DNA of 64,000 bases from positions 1 to 64,000 of IMG/VR virus record IMGVR_UViG_3300042484_002275; one strand, given 5' to 3'. The translations under genes were made by a program, and so were the position numbers. How positions within the stretch are numbered: the first letter of the stretch is position 1; the number at the start of each line of letters is the position of its first letter. Positions 31,245-56,689 of this stretch are shown piece by piece. Under the pieces are notes generated by a model. The model ran no database searches. It was given only the letters and a program-made list of their open reading frames with translations, and had not been told where the DNA came from. Source of the DNA: a virus.

Positions 31245-32108
31245 ATGTCTAAAAAACATGTTGTAGTATCCTTAAGTGGAGGAATGGACTCAAGTACTTT
31301 ATTACTTAGATGCCTAAAAGAGTATGACACAGTTACTGCTATTAGCTTTGACTATGGTCAAAAACACAGAGTAGAGCTAGAGAGAGCTCAATCATTGGTA
31401 AACTATATTGGAGAAGAATCATCATCACAGACTGAATTACGTTATCGTCAAATTAAACTAGACGGATTAGTTGATCTATTAGATTCAGCTTTAGTAACTG
31501 GGGGTAAAGATGTACCAGAAGGTCATTACGAGCAAGACAATATGAAAGAAACAGTTGTTCCTAACAGAAACAAGATGTTCGCTTCTATTGCTCAAGCAGT
31601 AGCTTTATCGGTTGCAAATCGTACAGGAGAGACTTGTGATATTGCAATGGGAATTCATGCAGGTGATCATGCTGTTTATCCAGACTGTAGACAAGAATTT
31701 AGAGATGCAGATGATAATGCCTTCAGAATGGGTAACTGGGATGCTGAAAGAGTAGGTTATTTTACACCTTATCTTGATACAGACAAATTCGGTATCTTAC
31801 AGGATGGAGAAGTTTTATGTAAAGAGTTGTATTTAGATTTTGATGAAGTTTATTCAAGAACTAATACTTCTTATAAACCAATATGGATACCAGGACCTGA
31901 AAGTAAATCAAGAGTAGAAGAAACTCACAGAACAAAATGGGGTGAATGGTACTCAGATTATAAATCAGCATCTTCAGTAGAACGTATCGAAGCATTTATC
32001 AAACTAGGAAGAAAAGATCCAGTTGCTTATGCAGACGAAACAGGACCAGTAACATGGGAAGTAGCAAGAGATGCAGTTCAAAAAGTATTAACAGAACATA
32101 ATAATTAA
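31245..32108 (+). CDS. queC: QueC-like 7-cyano-7-deazaguanine synthase
   Basis: 287 residues. The PP-loop SLSGGMDSST at about 9-18 binds ATP; FDYGQKHRVELE and VVPNRNKMFASIA are QueC signatures. It converts CDG to preQ0. The C-terminal zinc site of classical QueC (four Cys) is not visible: the TxSCY position reads TNTSYKP and the CxxC pairs are replaced by HRTKWGEW. It may be a zinc-independent phage branch. The rest of the pathway is at 51434-58824. Confidence 0.88.
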   Translation: MSKKHVVVSLSGGMDSSTLLLRCLKEYDTVTAISFDYGQKHRVELERAQSLVNYIGEESSSQTELRYRQIKLDGLVDLLDSALVTGGKDVPEGHYEQDNMKETVVPNRNKMFASIAQAVALSVANRTGETCDIAMGIHAGDHAVYPDCRQEFRDADDNAFRMGNWDAERVGYFTPYLDTDKFGILQDGEVLCKELYLDFDEVYSRTNTSYKPIWIPGPESKSRVEETHRTKWGEWYSDYKSASSVERIEAFIKLGRKDPVAYADETGPVTWEVARDAVQKVLTEHNN

Positions 32109-32794: not shown

Positions 32795-33086
32795 CCCCCA
32801 GTAGATAGGTCCGCCAAGAAAGTCTTTAAACAACGTGGGAACTGCGGCTCTCCCAATGTGGCTGGAATGTTTTATAAAATACCAATGCTCGCTGTTAATT
32901 GATGATGGTGTTAAACGGATGAAAAAGGGTTTATAGTAATCTAGAGTACAAGCAAATCATCAATCAGAAACCCTGAAAGACCAAGGTTGGTAAAAAAAGA
33001 ATAGGTTGGTGTCAACGGGAAAGTTCCTGCTAGGGTTAACATGGACGATAAGTCTGGATGAAGGTTCGAATCCTTCACCTATTCCA
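32795..33086 (+). ncRNA. structured RNA ending in a tRNA-like domain
   Basis: About 290 bases with no credible ORF. Visible helices: AACACC/GGTGTT near 32791 and 32908, AGGGTTT/AAACCCT near 32928 and 32971, TGGGA/TCCCA near 32848. The last part (33000-33084) is tRNA-like: AATAGGT pairs with ACCTATT, and GAAGG-TTCGAAT-CCTTC is a perfect T-arm. The segment after the acceptor reads GGTGTCAACGGG, resembling the tmRNA D-loop more than a tRNA D-arm, but no tag ORF is visible. It could be a tmRNA-like or degenerate tRNA-derived RNA. Confidence 0.4.
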
Positions 33087-34303: not shown

Positions 34304-34334
34304 TTGCTAGAAAGAATAAAAGTTCGTATATTTA
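34304..34334 (+). promoter_or_regulatory. tRNA array promoter 1
   Basis: TTG 34304-34306, 20 bases, TATATTTA 34327-34334, preceded by TTCG; the first tRNA begins 49 bases later. Confidence 0.7.
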
Positions 34335-34382: not shown

Positions 34383-34466
34383 GGAAGGCGGCCGAATGGA
34401 CGAGGAGCTTGTCTTGAAAACAAGTAGCGGGTAACACCGTTGTGGGTTCGATTCCCATGCCTTCCT
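34383..34466 (+). tRNA. tRNA-Ser(UGA)
   Basis: Acceptor GGAAGGC/GCCTTCC, anticodon loop CTTGAAA, T-loop TTCGATT, GG in the D-loop. The 3' CCA is not encoded, as for the other tRNAs here. Confidence 0.88.
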
Positions 34467-34472
34467 CAATAT

Positions 34473-34543
34473 TGCCCGTTCGTATAAAAGTAGTACACAT
34501 GTCTTTGACACATGCGGAGAAGGAGCGTTACCTTCATGGGCAA
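34473..34543 (+). tRNA. tRNA-Gln(UUG), non-canonical T-loop
   Basis: Acceptor TGCCCGT/ATGGGCA, anticodon stem CATGT/ACATG with loop CTTTGAC. The T-stem GAAGG/CCTTC is perfect but its loop is AGCGTTA instead of TTCGANT, and the D-loop TAAAAGTAG lacks GG. It is the only Gln tRNA in the window. Confidence 0.8.
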
Positions 34544-34554
34544 CAAATTAAATT

Positions 34555-34627
34555 TCTAGTAGCGAAGCTAGGTTACATGCCTCACTTGGACTGAGGAGTA
34601 CGCAGGTTCGAATCCTGCCTATTAGAC
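34555..34627 (+). tRNA. tRNA-Pro(UGG)
   Basis: Acceptor TCTAGTA/TATTAGA, anticodon stem CCTCA/TGAGG with loop CTTGGAC, T-loop TTCGAAT, GG in the D-loop. Confidence 0.88.
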
Positions 34628-34631
34628 AATC

Positions 34632-34702
34632 GCCCTCTAGGCTTTAAAGTGAAGCACCTAGCTTTTAACTAGGGTAAGAAGGAGCATTACCTTCAGGGGG
34701 TA
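34632..34702 (+). tRNA. tRNA-Lys(UUU), non-canonical T-loop
   Basis: Acceptor GCCCTCT/AGGGGGT, D-stem GCTT/AAGC with loop TAAAGTG (no GG), anticodon CCTAG/CTAGG with loop CTTTTAA, T-stem GAAGG/CCTTC with loop AGCATTA. Confidence 0.8.
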
Positions 34703-34719
34703 CACGGATGAGATTGTTA

Positions 34720-34757
34720 CTAATTCATAGAACTGCATGGTGTGAGCGTAGAATTAG
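34720..34757 (+). other. hairpin spacer in tRNA array
   Basis: CTAATTC (34720-34726) pairs with GAATTAG (34751-34757), enclosing 24 bases between tRNA-Lys and tRNA-Val. Confidence 0.4.
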
Positions 34758-34761
34758 ATTT

Positions 34762-34832
34762 GCCTCGTTGGCGTAATGGGAGCGTATTTCTTTTACATGG
34801 AAATGGCAGTGGTTCGATTCCACTACGAGGTA
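34762..34832 (+). tRNA. tRNA-Val(UAC)
   Basis: Acceptor GCCTCGT/ACGAGGT, anticodon stem TTTCT/GGAAA with loop TTTACAT, T-arm GTGG-TTCGATT-CCAC. Confidence 0.85.
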
Positions 34833-34833
34833 C

Positions 34834-35029
34834 TAAGTAAGTTAATATGCTGTGAAAGCTTCAATGAGCGCAAGTTGAAGTTAGGTGGGTTCGAGCCCCT
34901 CTACTGTAGTAATAGCCTAAGTCGGAGGCAGCCAAGTAGCAGATAACATATTATAGCCGATTTGGGTTGTGCACCTCGTCCGAGAAGCCCTAATAGTTCC
35001 TAATAGTTCGGTATGGAACAACTTACTTA
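34834..35029 (+). ncRNA. 196-base structured spacer RNA
   Basis: A perfect 10-bp terminal helix TAAGTAAGTT (34834-34843) / AACTTACTTA (35020-35029), with inner AATATG/CATATT and a CTTCAA/TTGAAG hairpin. No ORF and no complete cloverleaf, though one GGTTCGAGCC block is T-arm-like. May be a degenerate tRNA or an independent phage RNA. Confidence 0.45.
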
Positions 35030-35033
35030 AAAT

Positions 35034-35104
35034 GGGGACAACAGGCAAGGTGCCGAGCAGCTCTGTAAAAGCTCACTGGGTAGGTTCGATTCCTACTGGC
35101 CCCA
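35034..35104 (+). tRNA. tRNA-Tyr(GUA)
   Basis: Acceptor GGGGACA/TGGCCCC (one A-G mismatch), anticodon loop CTGTAAA, T-loop TTCGATT. The long variable arm usual for bacterial tRNA-Tyr is missing. Confidence 0.78.
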
Positions 35105-35106
35105 CA

Positions 35107-35143
35107 AAGTCATGGCATCAAATCCCGGTAGGGGTGCTGACTT
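35107..35143 (+). other. hairpin spacer
   Basis: AAGTCA/TGACTT outer helix with GCATC/GGTGC inner helix between tRNA-Tyr and tRNA-Phe. The rest of the gap to 35210 shows no clear structure. Confidence 0.4.
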
Positions 35144-35210
35144 AAAATAAACAACGATGGTGAAAATGGAGTCCTGCAGGCTAACCAGAAGTAACAACGA
35201 GGGGATAATT

Positions 35211-35283
35211 GGGGATTAAGCTAATCTAGTGAAAGCGCTAGCCTGAAGAGTTAGAGAGATCGGAGCGTAACCGATAGTCCCCA
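35211..35283 (+). tRNA. tRNA-Phe(GAA), non-canonical T-loop
   Basis: Acceptor GGGGATT/AGTCCCC, anticodon stem CTAGC/GTTAG with loop CTGAAGA, T-stem ATCGG/CCGAT with loop AGCGTAA. D-loop AATCTAGTGAA has no GG. Only Phe tRNA present. Confidence 0.8.
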
Positions 35284-35289
35284 CAATAT

Positions 35290-35364
35290 TGGTCTGAAGC
35301 TTAAGAGGTATACAGCGGAGGTTTGTTAAACCTAGGATAGCAGGTTCGAGTCCTGTCAGACCAG
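35290..35364 (+). tRNA. tRNA-Asn(GUU)
   Basis: Acceptor TGGTCTG/CAGACCA perfect, anticodon loop TTGTTAA, T-loop TTCGAGT, GG in the D-loop. Confidence 0.87.
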
Positions 35365-35366
35365 CA

Positions 35367-35426
35367 AAACTACTGAAATTGAATGACACGAGCTTCATAC
35401 GTTCGAAAGGAGTCATGCAGTAGTTT
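35367..35426 (+). ncRNA. 60-base hairpin RNA spacer
   Basis: AAACTACTG (35367-35375) pairs perfectly with CAGTAGTTT (35418-35426), with an inner ATGAC/GTCAT helix. It sits precisely between two tRNA genes. Confidence 0.45.
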
Positions 35427-35431
35427 AAAAT

Positions 35432-35585
35432 GTTCGTATAGATGTGCTGTGGATACGCAGGGAACACATCGAGTGGGTTAATGATGGTAGTAGGTACACA
35501 ACACTCCTTAATACTAGGATTGGAGCGAAGGGTTGATGCATACTGCAGGTAATTAACAAGACTGGTTCGATTCCAGTTACGGGCG
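35432..35585 (+). tRNA. interrupted or expanded tRNA, identity unclear
   Basis: The 3' end ACTGG-TTCGATT-CCAGT followed by TACGGGC is a perfect T-arm plus acceptor strand. The best 5' partner is GTTCGTA at 35432 (7 pairs, two G-T), giving 154 bases, about twice a tRNA. GATGTG/CACATC and GAGTG/CACTC helices lie between. It looks like a tRNA with about 80 inserted bases, or a remnant T-arm fused to a structured spacer. The anticodon cannot be read safely. Confidence 0.4.
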
Positions 35586-35590
35586 CAATT

Positions 35591-35662
35591 TCTCCTATAG
35601 TAGAATGGTTAGCACACATCTCTGATAAGGATGAAATGGAAGTTCAATTCTTCCTAGGAGTA
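35591..35662 (+). tRNA. tRNA-Ile(GAU)
   Basis: CTCCTA/TAGGAG acceptor (T1-T72 unpaired), anticodon stem CATCT/GGATG with loop CTGATAA, T-arm GGAAG-TTCAATT-CTTCC. Confidence 0.82.
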
Positions 35663-35664
35663 CA

Positions 35665-35770
35665 AAAGTTACCACGCTTGTTCCGTCAGTGGTTGTAAAG
35701 TCGAATCAATAAACGGAACCCCAAATGGAGGTCTTGCCTTAGTAGACTAAAGATTCTAAACGACAACTTT
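35665..35770 (+). ncRNA. 106-base structured spacer RNA
   Basis: AAAGTT/AACTTT terminal helix, GTTCCGT (35680-35686) with ACGGAAC (35713-35719), and a CTTAGT/ACTAAAG hairpin. Lies between tRNA-Ile and tRNA-Ser(GCU). Confidence 0.4.
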
Positions 35771-35774
35771 AAAT

Positions 35775-35857
35775 GGAAAGTAAATCAACTAGGAGTTGAG
35801 ACCGCTTGCTAAGCGTATCGTGCCTTCGGGCATGGGGTTCGATACCTCTACTTTCCT
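35775..35857 (+). tRNA. tRNA-Ser(GCU)
   Basis: Acceptor GGAAAGT/ACTTTCC, anticodon loop TTGCTAA, long variable arm TGCC-TTCG-GGCA as expected for Ser, T-loop TTCGATA. The anticodon stem is weak (three pairs). Confidence 0.8.
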
Positions 35858-35870
35858 CTTTAAAAACCTG

Positions 35871-35994
35871 GTCCCTGTCCTCATAAAGTGTTTAAGGAAC
35901 ACAGGAGTTGAATGTGCATTCGGGGCGGATAGTGGTGGGACACTGATAAATAAAATCTTAAGCACAAAGATAAGTTAACGGGTTCTTATCAACT
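35871..35994 (+). other. structured spacer region
   Basis: GTCCC (35871) / GGGAC (35937), a GTGTT/AACAC hairpin and a GATAAG/CTTATC hairpin lie between two tRNAs; no ORF or cloverleaf is convincing. Confidence 0.3.
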
Positions 35995-36063
35995 ACCGAC
36001 TTGATCTAGGATCGAAAATATCTCATAAGTATTTTCAGACAAGAGCGTAACTTGTAGTCGGTA
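35995..36063 (+). tRNA. tRNA with CAU anticodon (Met or Ile2), non-canonical T-loop
   Basis: Acceptor ACCGACT/AGTCGGT perfect, anticodon stem AATAT/GTATT (extendable to eight pairs) with loop CTCATAA, T-stem ACAAG/CTTGT with loop AGCGTAA. The D-arm is reduced to GATC-TAG-GATC, a three-base loop. One of three CAU tRNAs. Confidence 0.75.
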
Positions 36064-36067
36064 CAAA

Positions 36068-36144
36068 GCTAAAGTGGTGAAATTGGTAAACACTCCCATC
36101 GAGAGATGGTGCGGATTTTGTAGGTTCGAGTCCTACCTTTAGTG
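36068..36144 (+). tRNA. tRNA-Leu, probable GAG anticodon
   Basis: The Leu-like 5' half (GCTAAAGTGGTGAAATTGG) and T-arm GTAGG-TTCGAGT-CCTAC are clear. The anticodon arm CCCATCGAGAGATGG can form CCAT/ATGG around CGAGAG, a six-base loop, so GAG is the likely but not certain anticodon. Confidence 0.7.
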
Positions 36145-36149
36145 TATAT

Positions 36150-36221
36150 GGTGTTTCTAGCTTAATCGGTAAAGTGCTTCACTGTGAATGAAGAGAACAG
36201 GGTTCGAAACCCGGAAACACA
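36150..36221 (+). tRNA. tRNA-His(GUG)
   Basis: Acceptor GTGTTTC/GAAACAC with an extra 5' G at 36150 as tRNA-His needs, anticodon stem CTTCA/TGAAG with loop CTGTGAA, T-loop TTCGAAA. Confidence 0.87.
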
Positions 36222-36316
36222 CGACGACGCCCAAAGGACGATCGACCTGGCCAGAGACTAGTTCTTGCAAACTCAATGCCTAAAGTTGAGCGGCCAATCT
36301 ATGGGATTGGCTTTAC
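36222..36316 (+). other. structured spacer with two hairpins
   Basis: CTCAA/TTGAG hairpin near 36271-36290 and a perfect 7-bp GCCAATC (36293-36299) / GATTGGC (36305-36311) hairpin precede tRNA-Leu(UAA). Confidence 0.35.
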
Positions 36317-36389
36317 ATCCCTGTGGTGAAACGGTAAACACAACGAGTTTAAGCCTCGTAAGCTGCAGGTTCGACTCCTGTCAGGGATA
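36317..36389 (+). tRNA. tRNA-Leu(UAA)
   Basis: Acceptor ATCCCTG/CAGGGAT, anticodon stem ACGAG/CTCGT with loop TTTAAGC, T-loop TTCGACT. The variable loop is only about five bases, unusual for Leu. Confidence 0.85.
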
Positions 36390-36394
36390 CAAAT

Positions 36395-36467
36395 GGTCTT
36401 GTAGCATAAATGGAAATGCACTTGAATACGAATCAAGAGATTGTAGGCTCGAATCCTACCAGGACTT
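36395..36467 (+). tRNA. tRNA-Arg(ACG)
   Basis: Acceptor GGTCTTG/CAGGACT, anticodon stem CTTGA/TCAAG with loop ATACGAA, T-stem GTAGG/CCTAC with loop CTCGAAT (CTC in place of TTC). Confidence 0.83.
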
Positions 36468-36472
36468 CAATT

Positions 36473-36544
36473 GCCCTATTAGTTAAACGGATATAACGAA
36501 TCTCTTCTAAAGATTAATTCTAGGTTCGATTCCTGGATGGGGTA
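36473..36544 (+). tRNA. tRNA-Arg(UCU)
   Basis: Acceptor GCCCTAT/ATGGGGT, anticodon stem AATCT/AGATT with loop CTTCTAA, T-loop TTCGATT. Confidence 0.87.
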
Positions 36545-36551
36545 CAAAAAA

Positions 36552-36603
36552 ATCGTATTGGAAGAAAGTTTGATCAACTTTCGTAGGTTAAGCGATATCC
36601 TAC
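36552..36603 (+). other. hairpin spacer
   Basis: GAAAGTT (36564-36570) / AACTTTC (36576-36582) perfect hairpin, framed by ATCG/CGAT and followed by GTAGG/CCTAC; between tRNA-Arg and tRNA-Trp. Confidence 0.4.
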
Positions 36604-36607
36604 AAAT

Positions 36608-36678
36608 GCAGGTCACAGACAAGGTGTCGGTACGGTCTCCAAAACTGCTACGGGTAAGTTCGATTCTTACGGTCTGCG
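36608..36678 (+). tRNA. tRNA-Trp(CCA)
   Basis: Acceptor GCAGGTC/GGTCTGC, anticodon loop CTCCAAA, T-arm GTAAG-TTCGATT-CTTAC. Confidence 0.86.
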
Positions 36679-36710
36679 CAAAATAAATTGTTTCATTTAA
36701 AATTAAAATC

Positions 36711-37217
36711 ATGAGTAAGTACCAAAGAACACTGGTAATTGATTCAAGCTTTATGGCAAGATCTATTATCTCTACCGAAAGAGCTTTCGTGATTTCGTAT
36801 AAGGGTAATGCAGAAGTTATAGCTGAACATCCAGAAACATTCGGATTAGTAAATCCGGATTTAAAAATTAATAAACCTTCAATCATTAGGGTTTACAAAT
36901 ACGTAAAACAAGACATTCAAAAAGTTCCTCTAACAAGAGAGAACATTTATCGAAGAGATAATTACGAATGTGTTTATTGTGGATCAAGTTACTTGAAGTC
37001 ACTAACACTTGACCATGTCATCCCACAATCAAAAGGTGGAGCAAATGCTTGGGATAATTTAGTAACAGCATGTAGAACTTGCAATTCAGAAAAAGCAGAT
37101 TTAACTCTTGAGGAATATGGTAAAGACATAGTAGAACCAAAAAGACCTCATTATCTAATGCTTATGAAACAGTTAACATACATTCCAAAAGAATGGGAAA
37201 CATTTTTATTTTTCTAG
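36711..37217 (+). CDS. HNH endonuclease within the tRNA array
   Basis: 168 residues. The C-terminal half carries a typical HNH domain: NIYRRDNYECVYCGSS (first CxxC), LTLDHVIPQSKGGANAWDNL (HNH core) and ACRTCNSEK (second CxxC). The N-terminal 85 residues are unassigned. It is a stand-alone gene between two tRNA blocks, a usual position for homing-type endonucleases that mobilise tRNA regions; it may also be a Bacteroidetes-type HNH without homing activity. Confidence 0.85.
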   Translation: MSKYQRTLVIDSSFMARSIISTERAFVISYKGNAEVIAEHPETFGLVNPDLKINKPSIIRVYKYVKQDIQKVPLTRENIYRRDNYECVYCGSSYLKSLTLDHVIPQSKGGANAWDNLVTACRTCNSEKADLTLEEYGKDIVEPKRPHYLMLMKQLTYIPKEWETFLFF

Positions 37218-37226
37218 TAAAAAAAG

Positions 37227-37257
37227 TTGCTAGAAAGAAATAAAGTTCGTATCTTTA
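37227..37257 (+). promoter_or_regulatory. tRNA array promoter 2
   Basis: TTG 37227-37229, 20 bases, TATCTTTA 37250-37257, preceded by TTCG. Restarts transcription after the HNH gene. Confidence 0.68.
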
Positions 37258-37273
37258 AGTATAAGAAAGAAAC

Positions 37274-37335
37274 ATCACCTACTACGTAACGCACGATCGA
37301 CGACACGTACTGTCTGGCAGGTCAGGCTAGGTGAT
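37274..37335 (+). ncRNA. 62-base structured spacer RNA
   Basis: Perfect 8-bp terminal helix ATCACCTA (37274-37281) / TAGGTGAT (37328-37335), ending five bases before tRNA-Cys. Confidence 0.42.
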
Positions 37336-37339
37336 AAAT

Positions 37340-37409
37340 GGGCAGGGTGGTCTTGGAGGCCGGTGGCATTGCAACAGCTACAGACAGAGTTCGATTCTCT
37401 GCTTGCCCT
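37340..37409 (+). tRNA. tRNA-Cys(GCA)
   Basis: Acceptor GGGCAGG/CTTGCCC, anticodon loop TTGCAAC, T-arm CAGAG-TTCGATT-CTCTG. Confidence 0.82.
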
Positions 37410-37423
37410 CATTGAAGGTTCGA

Positions 37424-37468
37424 CCCTCTACCATCTTGTATTACACCTACAGATGGATATCGAGAGGG
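37424..37468 (+). other. nested hairpin spacer
   Basis: CCCTCT (37424-37429) / AGAGGG (37463-37468) outer and CCATCT (37431-37436) / AGATGG (37451-37456) inner helices. An ACCGC/GCGGT hairpin follows before tRNA-Leu(UAG). Confidence 0.45.
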
Positions 37469-37505
37469 AGCTACCGATTGATAAGTGACCGCACATGCGG
37501 TAAAT

Positions 37506-37578
37506 GCCCGAGTGGTGGAACGGTAGACACGCTAGTCTTAGGAACTAGATACTGAGGGTTCGAATCCCTCCTTGGGTA
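37506..37578 (+). tRNA. tRNA-Leu(UAG)
   Basis: Acceptor GCCCGAG/CTTGGGT, anticodon stem CTAGT/ACTAG with loop CTTAGGA, T-arm GAGGG-TTCGAAT-CCCTC; short variable loop. Confidence 0.86.
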
Positions 37579-37583
37579 CGATA

Positions 37584-37649
37584 GTAGGACCGGGTTACCG
37601 GATATGGGTTCCTTAATTGGACAGAAGGACTGGAGTCCTAGTCGCCTAC
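37584..37649 (+). other. cloverleaf-like spacer RNA
   Basis: GTAGG/CCTAC terminal helix enclosing CCGG-GTTA-CCGG and AGGAC-TGGA-GTCCT hairpins. Loops do not match any tRNA consensus. Confidence 0.35.
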
Positions 37650-37657
37650 AAAATAAA

Positions 37658-37726
37658 ATTAGAGTTCGCTTATAGTAAAGCAGCAGGGGCTAACCTGCAG
37701 AAGGGATTCCAACACCCACTCTAATT
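37658..37726 (+). ncRNA. tRNA-sized cloverleaf RNA, non-canonical
   Basis: Acceptor ATTAGAG/CTCTAAT inside a 10-bp helix, D-arm GCTT-ATAGTA-AAGC (no GG), anticodon arm GCAGG-GGCTAA-CCTGC with a six-base loop, T-arm with loop TTCCAAC flanked by A-A mismatches. Full cloverleaf geometry, but no U33 and a short anticodon loop, so it may be a degenerate or specialised tRNA. Confidence 0.45.
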
Positions 37727-37731
37727 TACTT

Positions 37732-37805
37732 GCTCTCGACGCACAAATGGTGGTGCACCGGATTTGTAACCCGGAATAGAGCCAGTTCGATCCTGGCCGA
37801 GAGCT
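37732..37805 (+). tRNA. tRNA-Thr(UGU)
   Basis: Acceptor GCTCTCG/CGAGAGC perfect, anticodon loop TTTGTAA, T-arm GCCAG-TTCGATC-CTGGC. Confidence 0.87.
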
Positions 37806-37813
37806 CAATAAAT

Positions 37814-37886
37814 GCGAATGTCGTATAACGGCTCATTACTCTTGACTTCCAATCAAGGAATGAGGGTTCGATTCCCTCCATTCGCT
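37814..37886 (+). tRNA. tRNA-Gly(UCC)
   Basis: Acceptor GCGAATG/CATTCGC perfect, anticodon stem CTTGA/TCAAG with loop CTTCCAA, T-loop TTCGATT. Confidence 0.9.
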
Positions 37887-37892
37887 CAAAAT

Positions 37893-37964
37893 GGCCCTAT
37901 CGTCTATCGGTTAGGACACATGGTTTTCATCCATGAAAGTCGGGTTCGACTCCCGGTGGGGCTA
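37893..37964 (+). tRNA. tRNA-Glu(UUC)
   Basis: Acceptor GGCCCTA/TGGGGCT, anticodon stem CATGG/CCATG with loop TTTTCAT, T-loop TTCGACT. Confidence 0.9.
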
Positions 37965-37969
37965 CAATT

Positions 37970-38041
37970 GGGGCTATAGTATAACGGCTATTACAATGGT
38001 TTTGCAAATCATAAATTGGAGTTCGATTCTCCATAGCTCCA
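37970..38041 (+). tRNA. tRNA-Ala(UGC)
   Basis: Acceptor GGGGCTA/TAGCTCC, anticodon loop TTTGCAA, T-arm TGGAG-TTCGATT-CTCCA. Confidence 0.9.
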
Positions 38042-38046
38042 CAAAA

Positions 38047-38118
38047 GGTCTATTCGTTCAACGGCTAGGACACTACCCTGTCACGGTAGGGATGAGAGTT
38101 CGATTCTCTCATAGACCG
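38047..38118 (+). tRNA. tRNA-Asp(GUC)
   Basis: Acceptor GGTCTAT/ATAGACC perfect, anticodon stem CTACC/GGTAG with loop CTGTCAC, T-loop TTCGATT. Confidence 0.92.
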
Positions 38119-38124
38119 CTATAT

Positions 38125-38198
38125 CGCGAGTTGGTAGAAGATGGTATCTCGCTAGGCTCATAACCTAGAGGTCGGGGGTTCGAATCCCTCACTCGCTA
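38125..38198 (+). tRNA. initiator tRNA-fMet(CAU)
   Basis: C1 faces T72 (unpaired, the initiator hallmark), then GCGAGT/ACTCGC. Anticodon stem CTAGG/CCTAG with loop CTCATAA, followed by AGGTC as in bacterial initiators; T-loop TTCGAAT. The anticodon stem has two rather than three G-C pairs next to the loop. Confidence 0.82.
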
Positions 38199-38203
38199 CT
38201 AAT

Positions 38204-38278
38204 GTCCTTTTAGCTCAGCCCGGTTAGAGCAGCTCGCTCATAACGAGAAGGTCACAGGTTCGAATCCTGTATAGGACA
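38204..38278 (+). tRNA. tRNA-Met(CAU) elongator or tRNA-Ile2
   Basis: Acceptor GTCCTTT/ATAGGAC (one T-T mismatch), canonical D-arm with GG, anticodon loop CTCATAA, T-loop TTCGAAT. If lysidine is added it would read AUA as Ile. Confidence 0.85.
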
Positions 38279-38308
38279 CAAAAATTTTATCCAATAAAAA
38301 TAAAAGTT

Positions 38309-40110: not shown

Positions 40111-40761
40111 ATGAAAATTACATTAGAAAAAGATCAAAGAATCTTCTTTACATCAGACACACATTACGCTCACTCAAACATCTGTAGTGCTACTACAAAC
40201 TGGACTGAGTCTTCGAACTTGACAAGAGAATTCAATTCACTTGATCATATGAACCAAGTACTTGTTGATAACATCAACAACATGGTTGGTGAAGATGATA
40301 TCTTAATTCATTTAGGAGATTTTAGCTTTGGAGGATTTGATAAGATACAAGAATTCAGAAGTAGAATCCTTTGTAAAAACATTCACTTGGTACTTGGAAA
40401 TCATGATCACCACATTGAAAGAAACAAAGAAGGAGTTCAAAAACTATTCTCTTCAGTACAAAACTACTTGAGATTAGAAGTAAGAAAGCCAATTAATAAG
40501 GCATTAACAGACAAGCATATTTTCGTTTGTATGCACTATCCAATTGCGTCATGGCATGATATGAACCAAGGAGTAATTCACTTGCATGGCCACGTGCATT
40601 TACCTTCACACCTACGAATAGCAGAGGGTAAAGCAATGGATGTTGGAGTAGATGGAAATGGTTTAGAGCCTTTATCACTAGGAGAGATCCTTATGATTAT
40701 GAAAGACCAACCAATTAGAAAATTAGAGTTACCAAAGGATCATCACGAAAAAAGAATCTAA
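40111..40761 (+). CDS. calcineurin-like metallophosphoesterase
   Basis: 216 residues with the full set of metal motifs: FFTSDTHYAH (D-x-H), IHLGDFSF (GD), VLGNHDHH (GNHD), CMHYPI and HGHVHLPS (GHxH). Followed at one base by a P-loop kinase and then an RNA ligase, it is likely the 2',3'-phosphatase component of an end-healing set like bacterial Pnkp. Substrate is inference. Confidence 0.85.
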   Translation: MKITLEKDQRIFFTSDTHYAHSNICSATTNWTESSNLTREFNSLDHMNQVLVDNINNMVGEDDILIHLGDFSFGGFDKIQEFRSRILCKNIHLVLGNHDHHIERNKEGVQKLFSSVQNYLRLEVRKPINKALTDKHIFVCMHYPIASWHDMNQGVIHLHGHVHLPSHLRIAEGKAMDVGVDGNGLEPLSLGEILMIMKDQPIRKLELPKDHHEKRI

Positions 40762-40762
40762 T

Positions 40763-41149
40763 ATGAAAGAGTTATTTTTATTAAGAGGATTACCTGGATC
40801 AGGTAAATCAACATTTGCAAAGGCATTAACAGGTGTTTATACTATAGAAGCAGATAAGTACTTTATGGATGGAGATGAATATAAATTTGATCCGTCTAAA
40901 CTAAAAGATGCACATGCTTGGTGTCAAAATACTACACGGGTTTGGATGACAACTGGTGTAAAAAGAATCACAATAGCAAACACATTTACTCAGGAATGGG
41001 AAATGCAACCATACTACGATTTAGCTAAAGAGTACGGATACAGAGTTTACTCTTTGATTGTAGAAAATAGACATGAAGGGGTAAATGAACATGGAGTACC
41101 AGAAGAAAAATTAGTACAAATGAAAAATAGATTCGAGATCAAGCTATGA
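40763..41149 (+). CDS. P-loop polynucleotide-kinase-like protein
   Basis: 128 residues. LLRGLPGSGKSTFAK at about 6-20 is a Walker A of the AAA_33/polynucleotide kinase type; IEADKYF at about 30 and TTGVKRITIANTF near 71 fit the family. Only the kinase domain is present. Lies between a phosphoesterase and an RNA ligase, matching the kinase module of Pnkp but as a separate protein. Stop overlaps the next start (ATGA). Confidence 0.78.
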   Translation: MKELFLLRGLPGSGKSTFAKALTGVYTIEADKYFMDGDEYKFDPSKLKDAHAWCQNTTRVWMTTGVKRITIANTFTQEWEMQPYYDLAKEYGYRVYSLIVENRHEGVNEHGVPEEKLVQMKNRFEIKL

Positions 41150-41367: not shown

Positions 41368-42510
41368 ATGGAAAATAATAACAGTGTTTGCTTTATAGCA
41401 AAAATAAATGAAGTAAGAGCAATTGAAGGAGCAGATAACATCGAACTTGTAATCGCAGGTGGGTGGAATGCTATTACTAAAAAAGGTGAATTTAAAGTAG
41501 GTGATGAAACAATCATTGCAACTACTGATGCAGTTATACCAGAATCTCTTTCTGAGGAAATGGGAGTTGCTTCTTACCTAAGAAAAGGAGGTAGAGTAAG
41601 AACTGTTAAACTAAGAGGAGTTTATTCTGAATGTTTAATCATTCCAATGACTTACCTTAGGGGTAAAGCCACAATGGGGGATTGGGATTTAAAAGAAGGA
41701 AGTGACTGCATGGAACTATTAGGTATCACCAAATACGAACCACCAGTTAAACAAATTCAACTTGCTTCAGGTAGAAAAATCAAATGGAGAGACAATCAAA
41801 ACTTCCATATCTATTACAAATTCCCAAACCTTAAAAACGTTGATGGAATGTTTACAGAAGAAGATACAGTAGAGATTTCTCGTAAAATTCATGGTACAAA
41901 TGCTAGATACGGTATTGTAAAAAAGACTAAATTGTCATTCTGGGATAAAGTAAAAAAATTCTTTAGATTAGCTGATAAGTGGATTAACTACGAATACATT
42001 TACGGTTCACATAACTGTGAGAAAGGATCTGACTCTCAAGGATTTTATTCTGAAGATGTTTGGAAAACAATTGCTGAGAAGTATGATATTAAAGCTAAGC
42101 TTTGGAAATATGTTAAAGATACAGCTAATATTGTAGACATTGGAAGTGGTATAGTACTCTATGGAGAAATTTATGGAGCAGGTATTCAAAAGAACTATGA
42201 CTATGGATTGGATGATATTAAATTTATAGGATTTGATACAACTATGAAAGGTGACTATAATTCACCAGCGGGTACTTACGGTGCATTTCATTCACTAGAC
42301 TTACCTTATATTGAAGTACTTTATTTTGGACTTTGGAATCAAGAAGTACAGGATAAGTTTGTATTTAACAACTTCATTGAAGGAACAAAAGTACCACATG
42401 AAGGAATTGTAATCAAACACAGTTCAGGAGATAGAAAAAAAGTAGCAAAGGTAATCAATCCAGACTATTTGATCTACGGAGAGAAGAATGATGTAGGAGA
42501 TTCACATTAA
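41368..42510 (+). CDS. RNA ligase (DRB0094/Rnl5-like)
   Basis: 380 residues. Nucleotidyltransferase motif I is SRKIHGTNARYG with the adenylated Lys; LYGEIYG is motif III-like, HEGIVIKHS motif IV and VAKVIN motif V. The first about 130 residues (KINEVRAIEGADNIELVIAG and so on) form an OB-like N-terminal domain as in the DRB0094 ligase family. It would seal 3'-OH/5'-phosphate RNA ends produced by the two upstream enzymes. A tRNA array lies just upstream. Confidence 0.85.
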   Translation: MENNNSVCFIAKINEVRAIEGADNIELVIAGGWNAITKKGEFKVGDETIIATTDAVIPESLSEEMGVASYLRKGGRVRTVKLRGVYSECLIIPMTYLRGKATMGDWDLKEGSDCMELLGITKYEPPVKQIQLASGRKIKWRDNQNFHIYYKFPNLKNVDGMFTEEDTVEISRKIHGTNARYGIVKKTKLSFWDKVKKFFRLADKWINYEYIYGSHNCEKGSDSQGFYSEDVWKTIAEKYDIKAKLWKYVKDTANIVDIGSGIVLYGEIYGAGIQKNYDYGLDDIKFIGFDTTMKGDYNSPAGTYGAFHSLDLPYIEVLYFGLWNQEVQDKFVFNNFIEGTKVPHEGIVIKHSSGDRKKVAKVINPDYLIYGEKNDVGDSH

Positions 42511-43024: not shown

Positions 43025-43642
43025 ATGGAAGACTTTTTCGAAGATTTAAAAAACAGACCAAGACCAAACTTATTCAGAAGAATATACCTTTGGTGGGCAC
43101 ATGATGGAAAGTATTATCACAAATACTTCAAACAAGGAGTAAAGAATCTATGGTACTGGTTTCCAATCATCTGGAAGGATAGAGATTGGGATGGTCATTA
43201 CATCTTTGAGATACTACAGCACAAATTGGAAGCACAAGCCAATTACATTGGAAGAAGAGATCTTCACACAAGAGCACAGCTTGATGCTAAAAGAATGAGA
43301 CTTTGCATCTCTTTAATTAAGAAAGTGCAAGAGGAAGACTACACAATGGAGTATATGGACTACCATAAGGACAGAGTTTGGTTTACAGATGTTGAAGACA
43401 GACCAGGAAATTCTCTATATAATTCAGAAGAAGTATGGGAAAAGTATGATGAATATTTTGCTAAATATCCTTTAGTTTATAAAAGAGTAATGAAAGGAGA
43501 TGGAGTATTTACTTTAGATGGTAGAAATGAATCTGATATAAAAAGAGTCATTGCAATGAATATTGCTCACCTTAATCACGACAGAGCAAGAAAATTGTTA
43601 TTTAAAATAATGGAAGAGAACATCGAGGGTTGGTGGGACTAA
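43025..43642 (+). CDS. unknown 205-residue protein
   Basis: Rich in Trp, Tyr, His and Arg (FRRIYLWWAHDGKYYHKYF; DRDWDGHYIFEILQHKLEA), mostly helical and soluble. Several His/Asp pairs could bind metal, but no family is recognised. Looks like a conserved phage protein of the accessory region. Confidence 0.55.
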   Translation: MEDFFEDLKNRPRPNLFRRIYLWWAHDGKYYHKYFKQGVKNLWYWFPIIWKDRDWDGHYIFEILQHKLEAQANYIGRRDLHTRAQLDAKRMRLCISLIKKVQEEDYTMEYMDYHKDRVWFTDVEDRPGNSLYNSEEVWEKYDEYFAKYPLVYKRVMKGDGVFTLDGRNESDIKRVIAMNIAHLNHDRARKLLFKIMEENIEGWWD

Positions 43643-43653
43643 AAACAAAAGAA

Positions 43654-44061
43654 ATGAAAAAGAAAATATACTTAGATGATGTAAGAACACCTAAAGATTC
43701 ATCTTGGACCGTAGTAAGAAACTACGAGCAATTTGTTGACACAGTTACTTACATTGGATTGGAAAACATAGATGTAATCTCCCTAGATCACGATTTAGGA
43801 GATACAGCAATGGCTGAATGGCATAAAAATGTTTACCATAATTACGAATTAAATTATGATAATATTACAGAGAAGACTGGAATGGATTGCACTAAATGGT
43901 TGGTCAATCAATGGTTGGATGGAGCTCCTATTGTGGATGTTGTAATACATTCTGCAAATGCAGTTGGTAGTGGAAACATGATGGGATACATAAATAACTA
44001 CAGACATATTCACAGATTACCTCAGAATTGTGTAAGAGTACAAATAGAACATACAGTATAA
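43654..44061 (+). CDS. cREC-like (cyclic-phosphate-processing receiver) domain protein
   Basis: 135 residues. KKIYLDDVRTPKDSSW and VISLDHDLGDTAM match the LDDxRxP ... DHDLG pattern of receiver-like cREC domains predicted to act on RNA with cyclic phosphates. I chose the ATG at 43654; an upstream start in the same frame would overlap the previous gene. Fits the RNA-repair neighbourhood (40111-42510). The domain assignment is by motif only. Confidence 0.6.
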   Translation: MKKKIYLDDVRTPKDSSWTVVRNYEQFVDTVTYIGLENIDVISLDHDLGDTAMAEWHKNVYHNYELNYDNITEKTGMDCTKWLVNQWLDGAPIVDVVIHSANAVGSGNMMGYINNYRHIHRLPQNCVRVQIEHTV

Positions 44062-51433: not shown

Positions 51434-51895
51434 ATGAAATTTCAATCAACAAAAGTATTTGATGGATACTCTACAGTATTTCGTCAATGGAGAGCAGAAG
51501 GTACTCATTGTAGTTTTCTTCACGGTTATGGCATTTCTTTCAAAATTATATTTGAAGGAGACCTAGACGAAAGAAACTGGGTGTGGGACTTTGGAGGAAT
51601 GAAAAGAGCTAAGAACACTATTGATGGTATGGCTCCTAAAGCATGGATGGACTATATGTTCGATCATACATATATCATTGCATTAGATGATCCTTTTCTA
51701 TATAAAGCACATGCAATGCACGACGAAGGTATAGCTCAAGTCCGGGTAGTTCCAGCTACAGGAGCAGAACAATTTGCAAAATTTATTTATGATAAAGTAT
51801 CTGAGTTTATTAAAATTGAGACAAATAATAGAGTAAGAGTAGAGAGTGTAGAATTTAAAGAACATAGTAAAAACTCAGCAATATATGGAGAGTAA
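51434..51895 (+). CDS. queD: QueD-like 6-carboxytetrahydropterin synthase
   Basis: 153 residues of the PTPS fold: FRQWRAEGTHCSFLHGYG corresponds to the Cys...HGH region, WDFGGMKRA follows as usual and FDHTYIIAL contains the catalytic-type DH. The classic HGH zinc pair reads HGY, so one zinc ligand differs. It makes CPH4 from dihydroneopterin triphosphate. The stop overlaps queE by eleven bases. Confidence 0.85.
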   Translation: MKFQSTKVFDGYSTVFRQWRAEGTHCSFLHGYGISFKIIFEGDLDERNWVWDFGGMKRAKNTIDGMAPKAWMDYMFDHTYIIALDDPFLYKAHAMHDEGIAQVRVVPATGAEQFAKFIYDKVSEFIKIETNNRVRVESVEFKEHSKNSAIYGE

Positions 51896-52670
51896 ATTGA
51901 AAAGAATAGAAGATTATAACAAAACACTTCCCATTGTAGAGCTTTATACAGCAGTGCAATCAGAAGGAAGTAGAGCAGGCTATCCAACGGTAGTAATCAG
52001 AACAACAGGCTGTACTCACAGATGTTGGTTTGGTGATGGTGGATGGTGCGACAGTTGGTACACCAGTATTCATCCTGAAAAAGGACATATTAGTTTCCAA
52101 GACATCATAAACATGTATGATGCAAATCCTCACATCACAGAGATGATGTTAACAGGAGGATCACCTACAATGCATCCAGCATTAGTAAACGAATTAACAC
52201 ATTTTGCACATGAAAGAAATATTTTCATTACGATTGAGACCGAAGGAAGTCATTTTCTTGAAACGGATTACCCAATTAATCTATTATCAATCTCCCCTAA
52301 GTTTTCTAACTCTGTCCCTAAGGTTGGTATTCTTACACCTCAAGGAGATGTGGTTGACGATAAAATGGTTAAGCAACACAACAAATTAAGACTTAACTTT
52401 GATGCAATGTCTAAATCAATTTCATATCATTCTGACTATCATTTAAAGCCAGTATGGGATGGAGAGGATCAAGAAGCATTGAAAGAGATATTAGGATTAA
52501 TAAAAGTTCTAGATATACCTCAGGACAAAGTCTGGTTCATGCCAGCAGGAGATTCAAGAGAGGCTTTATTCAAATCATATCCAAAAATGTTTGATTGGGT
52601 GAGAGATAATGGTTATAGATTAACCTGGAGACCTCACATCATTGCATTTGAAGACCAAAGAGAAGTATAA
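51885..52670 (+). CDS. queE: QueE-like 7-carboxy-7-deazaguanine synthase (radical SAM)
   Basis: 261 residues. The cluster motif reads CTHRCWFGDGGWC, i.e. C-x3-C-x7-C rather than C-x3-C-x2-C, then DSWYT. QSEGSRAGYPTVVIRTTGC precedes it, LTGGSPTMHP is the SAM-binding GGEP-like motif, and LSISPKFSNS is a QueE signature. Converts CPH4 to CDG. The five-residue longer loop before the third Cys is a family variant. Confidence 0.88.
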   Translation: MESKLKRIEDYNKTLPIVELYTAVQSEGSRAGYPTVVIRTTGCTHRCWFGDGGWCDSWYTSIHPEKGHISFQDIINMYDANPHITEMMLTGGSPTMHPALVNELTHFAHERNIFITIETEGSHFLETDYPINLLSISPKFSNSVPKVGILTPQGDVVDDKMVKQHNKLRLNFDAMSKSISYHSDYHLKPVWDGEDQEALKEILGLIKVLDIPQDKVWFMPAGDSREALFKSYPKMFDWVRDNGYRLTWRPHIIAFEDQREV

Positions 52671-54206: not shown

Positions 54207-54917
54207 ATGTCAAATAAAAAATTTATCGACGGTACAGAATTAGTACAAGCCGGATTCGCTAATGGTATTTCATCTCAATTAGCTAAAAAACAATTAACAG
54301 ATGGTCCAGAGGCAAGACTAACTGAAGTAGAAAAGCAACACATAATCGAAGATGCAGCAGAAGCATTTGGTAACTTCTTAACAGCTTTAGGTACTGATTG
54401 GAAGAATGATCCAAATTCATCTGATACTCCAAAGAGAGTTGCAAAGGCTTATGTAAATGATCTATGGGCAGGAAGGTATGCACCACTTACTCAAATCACA
54501 GCATTTCCTTCAGATGGATATGATGGAATAGTTCAAGAGAGTAACATACCAGTTACTTCAATGTGTTCACATCACCACCAAACAATCTCCGGAGAGGTAA
54601 GCATAGCTTATATTCCCTCTAAAGATGGAAAGGTAGTTGGGCTTTCAAAACTAAATAGAATTGTAGAGCAGTTTGCTAGACGTGGAGCAATCCAAGAACA
54701 GTTAACAGTTGCAATTCATAATGCAGTAGATAAAATCTGTGAAGGGAATCTAGGAGTAGCAGTAGCAATCTCAGCAACACATAACTGCGTATCATGTAGA
54801 GGAATTAAACATCAAGGAGCTTCAATGCAAACAGCAAAGCTAACAGGATGTTTCTTAGAAGAAGATTCAGCAAGAGCAGAATTCTATTCAAATATTAAAC
54901 TCGGAAAAAATAACTAA
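54207..54917 (+). CDS. folE: GTP cyclohydrolase I
   Basis: 236 residues. Zinc and catalytic residues are in TSMCSHHHQTISGEV (Cys, His) and NCVSCRGIKHQGA (Cys). VGLSKLNRIVEQFARR is the conserved GTP-binding helix. It turns GTP into dihydroneopterin triphosphate, the entry to preQ0/preQ1. Own promoter, suggesting separate control from queD/queE. Confidence 0.93.
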   Translation: MSNKKFIDGTELVQAGFANGISSQLAKKQLTDGPEARLTEVEKQHIIEDAAEAFGNFLTALGTDWKNDPNSSDTPKRVAKAYVNDLWAGRYAPLTQITAFPSDGYDGIVQESNIPVTSMCSHHHQTISGEVSIAYIPSKDGKVVGLSKLNRIVEQFARRGAIQEQLTVAIHNAVDKICEGNLGVAVAISATHNCVSCRGIKHQGASMQTAKLTGCFLEEDSARAEFYSNIKLGKNN

Positions 54918-55704: not shown

Positions 55705-55902
55705 ATGCAAAAAGCATTAGACCATTTAGAGAAGCATAAAGTCTTTATTGAGACTTTAGGAACAGATATGATACCTTTATCGGAAGCTTACAAGGCAGTG
55801 GAGTTATCAATCGATGAACAATTACAGGACACTTTATCTTTACTACAGGAACAACTCGGAGGATTGACAGAAGAACTAGAAATACCAGAAGAAAATGATT
55901 AA
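55705..55902 (+). CDS. small unknown acidic protein
   Basis: 65 residues, helical (MQKALDHLEKHKVFIETLG), with an acidic C-terminus. Overlaps the DpdA-like gene by eight bases, hinting at a functional link. Confidence 0.5.
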   Translation: MQKALDHLEKHKVFIETLGTDMIPLSEAYKAVELSIDEQLQDTLSLLQEQLGGLTEELEIPEEND

Positions 55903-56689
55903 GATAGCTCACGAATCACCAAAAAGCATATTCAAACAGGTACAGAGTGTAACTGACTATGACTATGCACTTGTACATTTATTTGAAGAAGATCCTGAAT
56001 ACCTACAGCAATTTCAAGAGGCAAAGGAAAAAGGAAGAGAGATTATTCTAGATAATTCTATCTTTGAATTAGAAGAAGCTTTTGATGCAGAGAAGTTTGC
56101 AGGATGGGTATTAGAGTTACAACCAGATTGGTATATAGTTCCTGATGCTTTAGAGGATGCAAAGAAGACTTGCTCACAAATGGCAAATTGGATAAACAAA
56201 TATAAAAATCTTCCAGGAAAGAAGATAGGAGTTGTTCAAGGAACAACCTATCAGCAGATTAAATCTTGTTACGAATACATGGATAAGATTGCTGAAGTTG
56301 ATATGATTGCAATTTCATTTGACTATTCTTACTATGTTAAATCAGTTCCGCATCCAAACAAATATGTTTCCTGGATGATGGGTAGAGTAAAACTATTAGG
56401 AGATTTATTAAAGGATGGAATAATAAATGAGAATAAGAAGCATCACTTATTAGGATGCGGATTACCTCAAGAGTTTGCTTTCTATTCAGATTATAAATGG
56501 ATATACTCTTTAGATACTTCCAATCCAGTTGTTCACGGAATAAAAGGAATTGAATACAGAGAAGACGGACTATGGTCAAAAGAATCTCAGAAGTTATTTG
56601 AATTAATAAATCATCAGGTAGAAGATATTAATCCAATACTATATAATATCAATAAGTTCAAATGGTTTACAAATGGAAGCAAAGTATAA
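55895..56689 (+). CDS. dpdA: DpdA-like TGT-fold DNA transglycosylase
   Basis: 264 residues with the TGT-like barrel pattern of phage DpdA: IILDNSIFELEEAFD (catalytic-type Asp), PDWYIVPDALEDAKKT, VVQGTTYQ, MIAISFDYSYY and HHLLGCGLPQEFAFYS. Such proteins swap guanine in DNA for preQ0 or preQ1. The zinc cysteines of tRNA TGT are absent, as in phage DpdA. With FolE, QueD, QueE, QueC and QueF in the same genome this predicts a modified virion DNA. Confidence 0.78.
   Translation: MIKIAHESPKSIFKQVQSVTDYDYALVHLFEEDPEYLQQFQEAKEKGREIILDNSIFELEEAFDAEKFAGWVLELQPDWYIVPDALEDAKKTCSQMANWINKYKNLPGKKIGVVQGTTYQQIKSCYEYMDKIAEVDMIAISFDYSYYVKSVPHPNKYVSWMMGRVKLLGDLLKDGIINENKKHHLLGCGLPQEFAFYSDYKWIYSLDTSNPVVHGIKGIEYREDGLWSKESQKLFELINHQVEDINPILYNINKFKWFTNGSKV

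Follow-up and report, generated by a model that had tools for sequence, protein, structure and literature searches.

Covariation supports an alternative elbow in a subset of tRNAs from phages and bacterial tRNA arrays

Four tRNAs in a phage tRNA array are probably real, selected tRNAs that use an alternative elbow, with a moderately likely role as a backup or damage-tolerant set in conflicts over tRNA cleavage. They are phage-encoded, their elbow is altered, and RNA-repair genes are adjacent. An alternative elbow structure is well supported by covariation, which shows paired alternatives at positions 18-55, 54-58, 17-59 and 19-56 and joint switching among them. The elbow would be built from A18 with G55, A54 with U58 (plus A60), a new Watson-Crick pair between 17 and 59, and the usual G19-C56 pair. 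Given the bases present, it is certain that these RNAs could carry no m5U54, pseudouridine 55 or Gm18; the initial annotation had already said so of the first two, and this follows directly from the sequence.

The window, meaning the whole 64,000-nucleotide stretch that was analyzed, is part of a virus record of 150,740 bases. The virus is an uncultured one of Flavobacterium type; between its DNA polymerase and the one encoded by the cultured Flavobacterium phage vB_FspM_immuto_2-6A (genus Immutovirus), identity is 93.8%. A promoter-like motif, AAAGTTCGTATNTTTA, has 8 matches in the window versus 0.47 expected. ARAGORN reports 18 of the 26 tRNAs in the array; it misses all four variants as well as four canonical tRNAs (Asn at 35290, Tyr at 35034, Trp at 36607 and Ser-GCU near 35779). 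The 22 non-variant tRNAs, tRNA-Val among them, have a TTC or CTC T-loop and a D-loop GG, as the initial annotation had described; ARAGORN, Rfam and reading of the sequence bear this out, with the D-loop GG checked by reading in each case. There is no second copy of the Gln, Lys or Phe tRNA within the window. With the variant elbow in four of its 26 tRNAs, the array would be an odd outcome were one elbow-reading nuclease the sole pressure. The features of the array and its surroundings are given in Table 1.

Table 1. Positions of the tRNA array, the variant tRNAs and neighboring features in the window
Feature	Position	Strand	Details
Promoter-like motif AAAGTTCGTATATTTA	34319..34334	+	49 bases upstream of first tRNA
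tRNA array	34383..38279	+	26 tRNAs, 22/26 with canonical elbow
tRNA-Gln(UUG), variant elbow	34473..34543	+	D-loop AAAAGTA (A18 G19), T-loop AGCGTTA; own cloverleaf scan
tRNA-Lys(UUU), variant elbow	34632..34702	+	D-loop TAAAGTG, T-loop AGCATTA
tRNA-Phe(GAA), variant elbow	35211..35283	+	D-loop ..CTAGTGA.., T-loop AGCGTAA
CAU tRNA, variant elbow	35995..36063	+	D-loop TAG (3 bases), T-loop AGCGTAA
HNH endonuclease gene inside array	36711..37217	+	Gene neighborhoods of relatives
Promoter-like motif, second copy	37242-37257		Precedes second tRNA block
Calcineurin-like phosphatase, possible RNA-repair member	40111..40761	+	PF00149
Polynucleotide-kinase-like P-loop kinase	40763..41149	+	PF13671
RNA ligase, DRB0094/Rnl5 type	41368..42510	+	PF09414, PF21189
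cREC protein (cyclic-phosphate processing receiver domain)	43630..44061	+	PF20274, 3.6e-21

The four tRNAs lie on the plus strand where they were initially placed; their T-loops read as first given, each on a perfect 5-bp T-stem, and the acceptor and anticodon stems are clean. A better cloverleaf with a canonical T-loop was looked for in all four variants and none was found. The T-loop consensus of the four is A54 G55 C56 R57 U58 W59 A60. The D-loop had been described as lacking GG; the doublet is indeed gone, with A18 in place of G18, but G19, the partner of C56, is retained in all four variants, and every D-loop contains W-A-G. Hence the G18-U55 and U54-A58 pairs are absent, and A18/G55 and A54/U58 are found in 4/4. 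The Gln and Lys tRNAs have acceptor, D, anticodon and T stems of 7, 4, 5 and 5 bp and a T-loop of 7; in tRNA-Lys, A8-U14 replaces U8-A14. Departures from standard cloverleaf lengths are a shorter D-stem in tRNA-Phe and an unusual D-arm in the CAU tRNA, where a single base joins the acceptor to a GATC/GATC D-stem and the anticodon stem can be extended to eight pairs. This D-stem is supported because relatives of the CAU tRNA covary between GATC/GATC and GGTC/GACC. The minimum-energy fold is a cloverleaf for Gln, Lys and CAU, tRNA-Phe being the only variant for which it is not. At its gathering threshold, Rfam RF00005 detects only Phe of the four (44.2 bits), and tRNA-Gln scores 42.1 bits in a narrower scan; the R1 model gives 76.9 bits for Gln and 78.2 bits for Lys, both of which are training members.

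Does the elbow change as a unit in other tRNAs? IMG/VR was searched with patterns in which nothing but the anticodon loop and the T-loop was specified, and every cloverleaf in the fetched loci was read with our own scanner, giving 1,500 unique tRNAs in 1,121 clusters. The clusters comprise related viral and mobile tRNAs, and p-values computed on them are descriptive because the clusters are phylogenetically non-independent. U55 (with C56) accompanies GG in 750/759 clusters and G55 (with C56) accompanies AG in 287/292, mismatched intermediates being rare (U55 with AG in 4/759, G55 with GG in 1/292). Positions 54-58 are U-A in 876 clusters, A-U in 146, G-G in 52, A-A in 19 and C-A in 19, with any other combination in at most 2. 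The exchange of T-A for A-T at 54 and 58 together with T for G at 55, noted initially in the window alone, recurs as a joint switch across viral tRNA clusters, and the proposal of a coordinated elbow redesign is strongly supported: A54-U58, G55/A18, A60 and the 17-59 pair occur together in more than 100 of them. Orthologues can switch all elbow features at once while the remaining tRNA stays nearly unchanged. For example, orthologous tRNA-Val genes on two viral contigs have TTCGATT/GG and AGCATAA/AG, respectively, and differ elsewhere at 2 positions. Similarly, close relatives of the window Gln, Phe and CAU tRNAs have G18/U55 where the window has A18/G55.

The contact between positions 17 and 59 is the new element of the putative elbow. 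In the A54-U58/G55 class, 17-59 is A-U in 51 clusters, U-A in 41, U-U in 9 and A-A in none (descriptive Fisher p 7e-20), compared with no association in canonical tRNAs (descriptive p 1.0). In the G54-G58 class, the combinations are mainly C-C, U-A, U-U and A-U, and the extra covarying pair is confined to non-canonical 54-58 classes. At position 60 the A-U and G-G classes have A, and the U-A class has a pyrimidine. The 19-56 pair occurs in all four Watson-Crick forms; its rare classes have the expected partner in 30/31 (A-U), 7/8 (U-A) and 8/10 (C-G) clusters, and in 52/61 overall, where permutation gives 31 on average and 42 at most. Positions 8-14 switch likewise (U-A 615, A-U 46, A-A 20, G-G 16). 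Because parts of the T-loop were specified in the search itself, the 18-55, 54-58 and 17-59 tests were repeated after setting aside every cluster that matches a search pattern, which leaves 1,049. Among these, 54-58 is U-A in 864, A-U in 86 and G-G in 52, and the whole A54-U58 class has A-U 34, U-A 24, U-U 8 and A-A 0 at 17-59 (descriptive p 1.7e-11). Furthermore, 17 diverse variants align without gaps, with 98.7% paired cells versus 62.5% when shuffled, and their 17-59 pair is AU in 9, UA in 7 and something else in 1. The isotypes affected include Lys, Gln, Phe, Ile, Pro, Val, Gly, Asp, His and Cys. The variant elbow looks like an alternative state that has been reached repeatedly and without decay. 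Decay or pseudogenes are ruled out by the intact stems and covarying pairs, and chance T-loops are excluded because the variant recurs and covaries across unrelated tRNAs.

Variant elbows are found in cultured phages and in bacteria. Cultured Pseudomonas phage 16Q has a tRNA-Ile with AGCGTTA and a tRNA-Pro with AGCGTAA, and KIL phages have corresponding T-arm matches. Cultured Streptomyces phage Warpy has a tRNA-His with GGCGGTA, and the same match occurs in ~13 related phage records. At least one G55 tRNA is present in 155 viral loci of this set, and some loci have solely G55 or other non-TTC tRNAs, such as L553 (19 G55 tRNAs) and L559 (22). The Lys pattern matches 15 contigs in bacterial genomes, 12 of which are real by inspection and are mostly Verrucomicrobial tRNA arrays. 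In one Verrucomicrobial chromosome (5.96 Mb, a single contig), all 29 array tRNAs detected have G55 and most have A18, and 27 of the 28 housekeeping tRNAs sampled outside the array are TTC/GG. Strong matches occur in 2 of 144 other sampled Verrucomicrobia genomes, one of the two being this 5.96-Mb contig, and in 0 of 296 other sampled Bacteroidota genomes. An origin from housekeeping tRNAs of a Bacteroidota host was rejected, since the seed alone is a strong match among 297 Bacteroidota genomes.

The phosphatase, kinase, RNA ligase and cREC genes lie 2-6 kb downstream of the window array. The best PDB match of the ligase is a Naegleria RNA ligase, and its score against TIGR02306 is 94.5 bits, under the family cut-off. 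The HNH gene inside the array has relatives that neighbor tRNA arrays, both in Verrucomicrobia and on a Mycobacterium plasmid. The array on the 5.96-Mb chromosome adjoins an HNH gene, a sigma factor, RtcB and a slipin-like band-7 protein, and another Verrucomicrobial array (L219) lies near an RNA ligase as well as RtcB and an HD-kinase. A link between the tRNA array and an RNA ligase or RtcB was recorded in the window and at L219, L629 and L630. The cultured sister phage immuto has four annotated tRNAs in the corresponding region, those read being canonical, and the RNA ligase is absent. Among 27 polymerase-related records, several of them near-duplicates and with elbows read at best-match loci only, an RNA ligase is present in 8/9 records with AGC-elbow tRNAs versus 0/18 without; the exception, G006, has the elbow and no ligase. 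The near-duplicates and the reading of best-match loci leave the link between RNA ligase and AGC elbow suggestive only, and shared descent and array size are confounders.

How might these tRNAs be used? The variants would fold into the L shape and work in translation, and it is moderately likely that enzymes that read the normal elbow would handle them poorly. Phages, and mobile or chromosomal arrays in which RNA-repair enzymes are encoded as well, would keep the variant set, and translation could continue when ordinary tRNAs are cleaved. The variant tRNAs may escape nucleases, and the RNA-repair genes beside the window array and bacterial arrays lend escape indirect support. Cas12a3 contacts the T-arm backbone (PMC12851939). 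AriB remains active in a strain without pseudouridine 55, which counts against a resistance model (PMC12409363), and the literature search found no nuclease with a demonstrated requirement for the canonical elbow (G18, U54 or U55). More tentatively, phages and some bacteria could possess a second, elbow-recoded tRNA set, orthogonal to elbow-reading enzymes, that is activated alongside RNA ligases upon destruction of the ordinary tRNAs.

The same observations can be read in other ways. The elbow could be one that is stable without host m5U54, pseudouridine 55 and Gm18, with the missing stability supplied by the new 17-59 pair, and so suit fast bulk production of tRNA late in infection or under stress. 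The usual modifications are impossible at 54 and 55, and the extra covarying pair is found solely in non-canonical 54-58 classes, both of which fit; yet U55 is retained in the ATC and GTC T-loop classes, canonical tRNAs fold unmodified, and RNA-repair neighbors are not predicted, making this reading rather unlikely. A non-ribosomal or otherwise specialized role, in which the altered elbow reduces ribosome use and the tRNAs work in a different pathway or as decoys for nucleases, has a precedent in the Staphylococcus cell-wall tRNA-Gly. In addition, the 18-55 pair is important for translocation, according to the title of a 2006 Nat Struct Mol Biol paper cited in PMC4810234. Such a role is nevertheless very unlikely: many isotypes are affected, Gln, Lys and Phe are single-copy in the window, and pairing is restored instead of abolished.

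The variants could also reflect compensated drift, with weakly constrained phage and mobile tRNAs losing and then regaining a tertiary pair, and the variants bringing no special benefit. The range of states (UA, AU, GG, CA and AA at 54-58, and all four 19-56 pairs) speaks for drift, as does the canonical elbow of most phage tRNAs. It too seems rather improbable, given how few mismatched intermediates there are, that near-identical orthologues differ by a joint switch of five T-loop positions, and that an entire array is converted on a Verrucomicrobial chromosome whose housekeeping tRNAs are not. The remaining alternative is structural: A18 may contribute not to a contact with G55 but to a 3-bp Watson-Crick D/T helix (G19-C56, A18-U58 and 17-59, with 57 bulged). 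Some selected suppressor tRNAs reportedly have a D/T helix or G54-G58, and A18 and U58 of the AGC class could pair in line with 17-59. This arrangement is disfavored, and on balance unlikely, because A18 follows G55 whether position 58 is U, G or A; its occurrence with G55 is no less strict when the class is G58 (GGC.G) or A58 (TGC.A).

Why does a selected alternative elbow matter? Few known RNA features are as conserved as the G18-Psi55/T54-A58 elbow, which RNase P, modification enzymes and the ribosome L1 stalk all read. Alternatives that occur naturally and covary amount to a comparative test of elbow requirements. The variant elbow explains why standard finders miss such phage tRNAs, it points to a possible new layer of tRNA-cleavage conflict, and the variants are ready-made tRNA scaffolds in which the elbow differs. 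Cultured Streptomyces phage Warpy and Pseudomonas phage 16Q make it testable now. A literature search, with subscription papers mostly outside its reach, found no report of A18/G55 tRNAs, 17-59 covariation or elbow-recoded phage or array tRNAs.

The Staphylococcus cell-wall tRNA-Gly has altered G18G19 and T54-Psi55; identity with it was rejected, there being no glycine anticodon among the four variants. With the canonical elbow (RF00005; G18-Psi55, G19-C56, T54-A58) the variants share the cloverleaf, the 7-base T-loop, G19-C56, G53-C61 and U33, and they differ from it in A18/G55, A54-U58, A60, the 17-59 pair and the unmodifiable positions 54 and 55. Elbows that depart from the canonical form have been described for tRNA-Pyl, tRNA-Sec and mitochondrial tRNAs (PMC7609411). 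tRNA-Pyl is without G18G19 and TPsiC, whereas the variants keep G19-C56. Like tRNA-Pyl, the CAU variant joins acceptor and D-stem by a single base, and its D-loop is small and its anticodon stem long (PMC7609411), but the Gln, Lys and Phe variants have near-normal cloverleaf lengths and all four have sense anticodons. Identity with tRNA-Pyl was rejected, as the anticodons are UUG, UUU, GAA and CAU and CUA is absent. In tRNA-Sec, a 16-59 contact (C16-C59 or U16-U59, PMC7609411) likewise joins a D-loop base 5' of G18 to position 59, and C-C and U-U also occur in the G54-G58 class here; unlike tRNA-Sec, the variants show Watson-Crick A-U/U-A covariation in tRNAs of ordinary length with non-canonical 54-58. 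Eukaryotic initiator tRNA-Met and tRNA-Ala with A54-A58 also replace 54-58 by a trans pair, and in the available parts of these sources no 18-55 change like that of the variants is described (PMC7912444, PMC7566577). The Anabaena trn operon is a silent, stress-induced array whose TrcR regulator is common to rtcB, an HNH gene and slipin (PMC10272220). It shares RtcB, HNH and slipin with the Verrucomicrobial array; elbow variants are unmentioned in that paper. Finally, host nucleases are evaded by phage tRNAs whose anticodon loop is altered (PMC10264068), and phage tRNAs can rescue infection from Retron-Eco7 and PARIS (PMC11555353, PMC12409363); like the variants, these are encoded by phages and proposed to resist or make up for tRNA-cleaving defense. 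In those nuclease-countering phage tRNAs it is the anticodon loop or the dosage that is changed, whereas here it is the elbow.

Across all loci, position pair 19-56 of the mobile tRNAs occurs as G-C and also as A-U, U-A and C-G, and the states of pair 8-14 include A-U and G-G. Nature thus offers abundant material here for studying covariation among tRNA tertiary contacts. Three stretches in the window carry a canonical TTCGA-type T-arm. For two of them an acceptor strand that matches lies a long way upstream, so these two may be split, intron-bearing or otherwise odd tRNA-like RNAs. The acceptor stem of tRNA-Trp(CCA) has an apparent A2-C71 mismatch.

The closest named relative of the Flavobacterium-type phage's tRNA-Lys is the Lys tRNA of Leptolyngbya phage Lbo-JY46 (L009), a phage that may truly come from a co-cultured bacterium instead of the stated cyanobacterial host. 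Its intergenic regions resemble Bacteroidota promoters. The 7.9-Mb MAG labeled Akkermansia muciniphila (L224/G029), which matches another Verrucomicrobial MAG, is seemingly far too large for that species; the label is likely wrong.

Features in the window and at other tRNA-array loci
Source	Feature	Coordinates	Remark
Window	Adenylylsulphate-kinase-like, HAD/PNKP-phosphatase-like, cytidylyltransferase-like genes	50-1214	Consecutive
Window	QueC	31245-32108	
Window	T-arm stretch	33000-33083	No recognisable nearby 5' half; acceptor match far upstream
Window	T-arm stretch	34840-34905	No recognisable nearby 5' half
Window	T-arm stretch	35434-35588	No recognisable nearby 5' half; acceptor match far upstream
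Window	tRNA-Trp(CCA)	36607-36678	
Window	HNH protein	36711-37217	At tRNA array
Window	Radical-SAM protein	51885-52670	QueE-like
Window	FolE	54207-54917	
Window	Protein	55895-56689	Position of immuto DpdA
L219	HNH protein	6811-7401	At tRNA array
L224	HNH protein	563-1306	At tRNA array
L569	HNH protein	6609-7103	At tRNA array
L629	HNH protein	12798-13361	At tRNA array

The consecutive genes at the window start possibly function in nucleotide or RNA-end processing. The QueC, QueE-like and FolE genes, together with the gene in the position of DpdA in the cultured Flavobacterium phage immuto, make 7-deazaguanine DNA modification probable for this virus. HNH proteins of similar layout lie within or next to tRNA arrays in a phage, in Verrucomicrobia and on a Mycobacterium plasmid.
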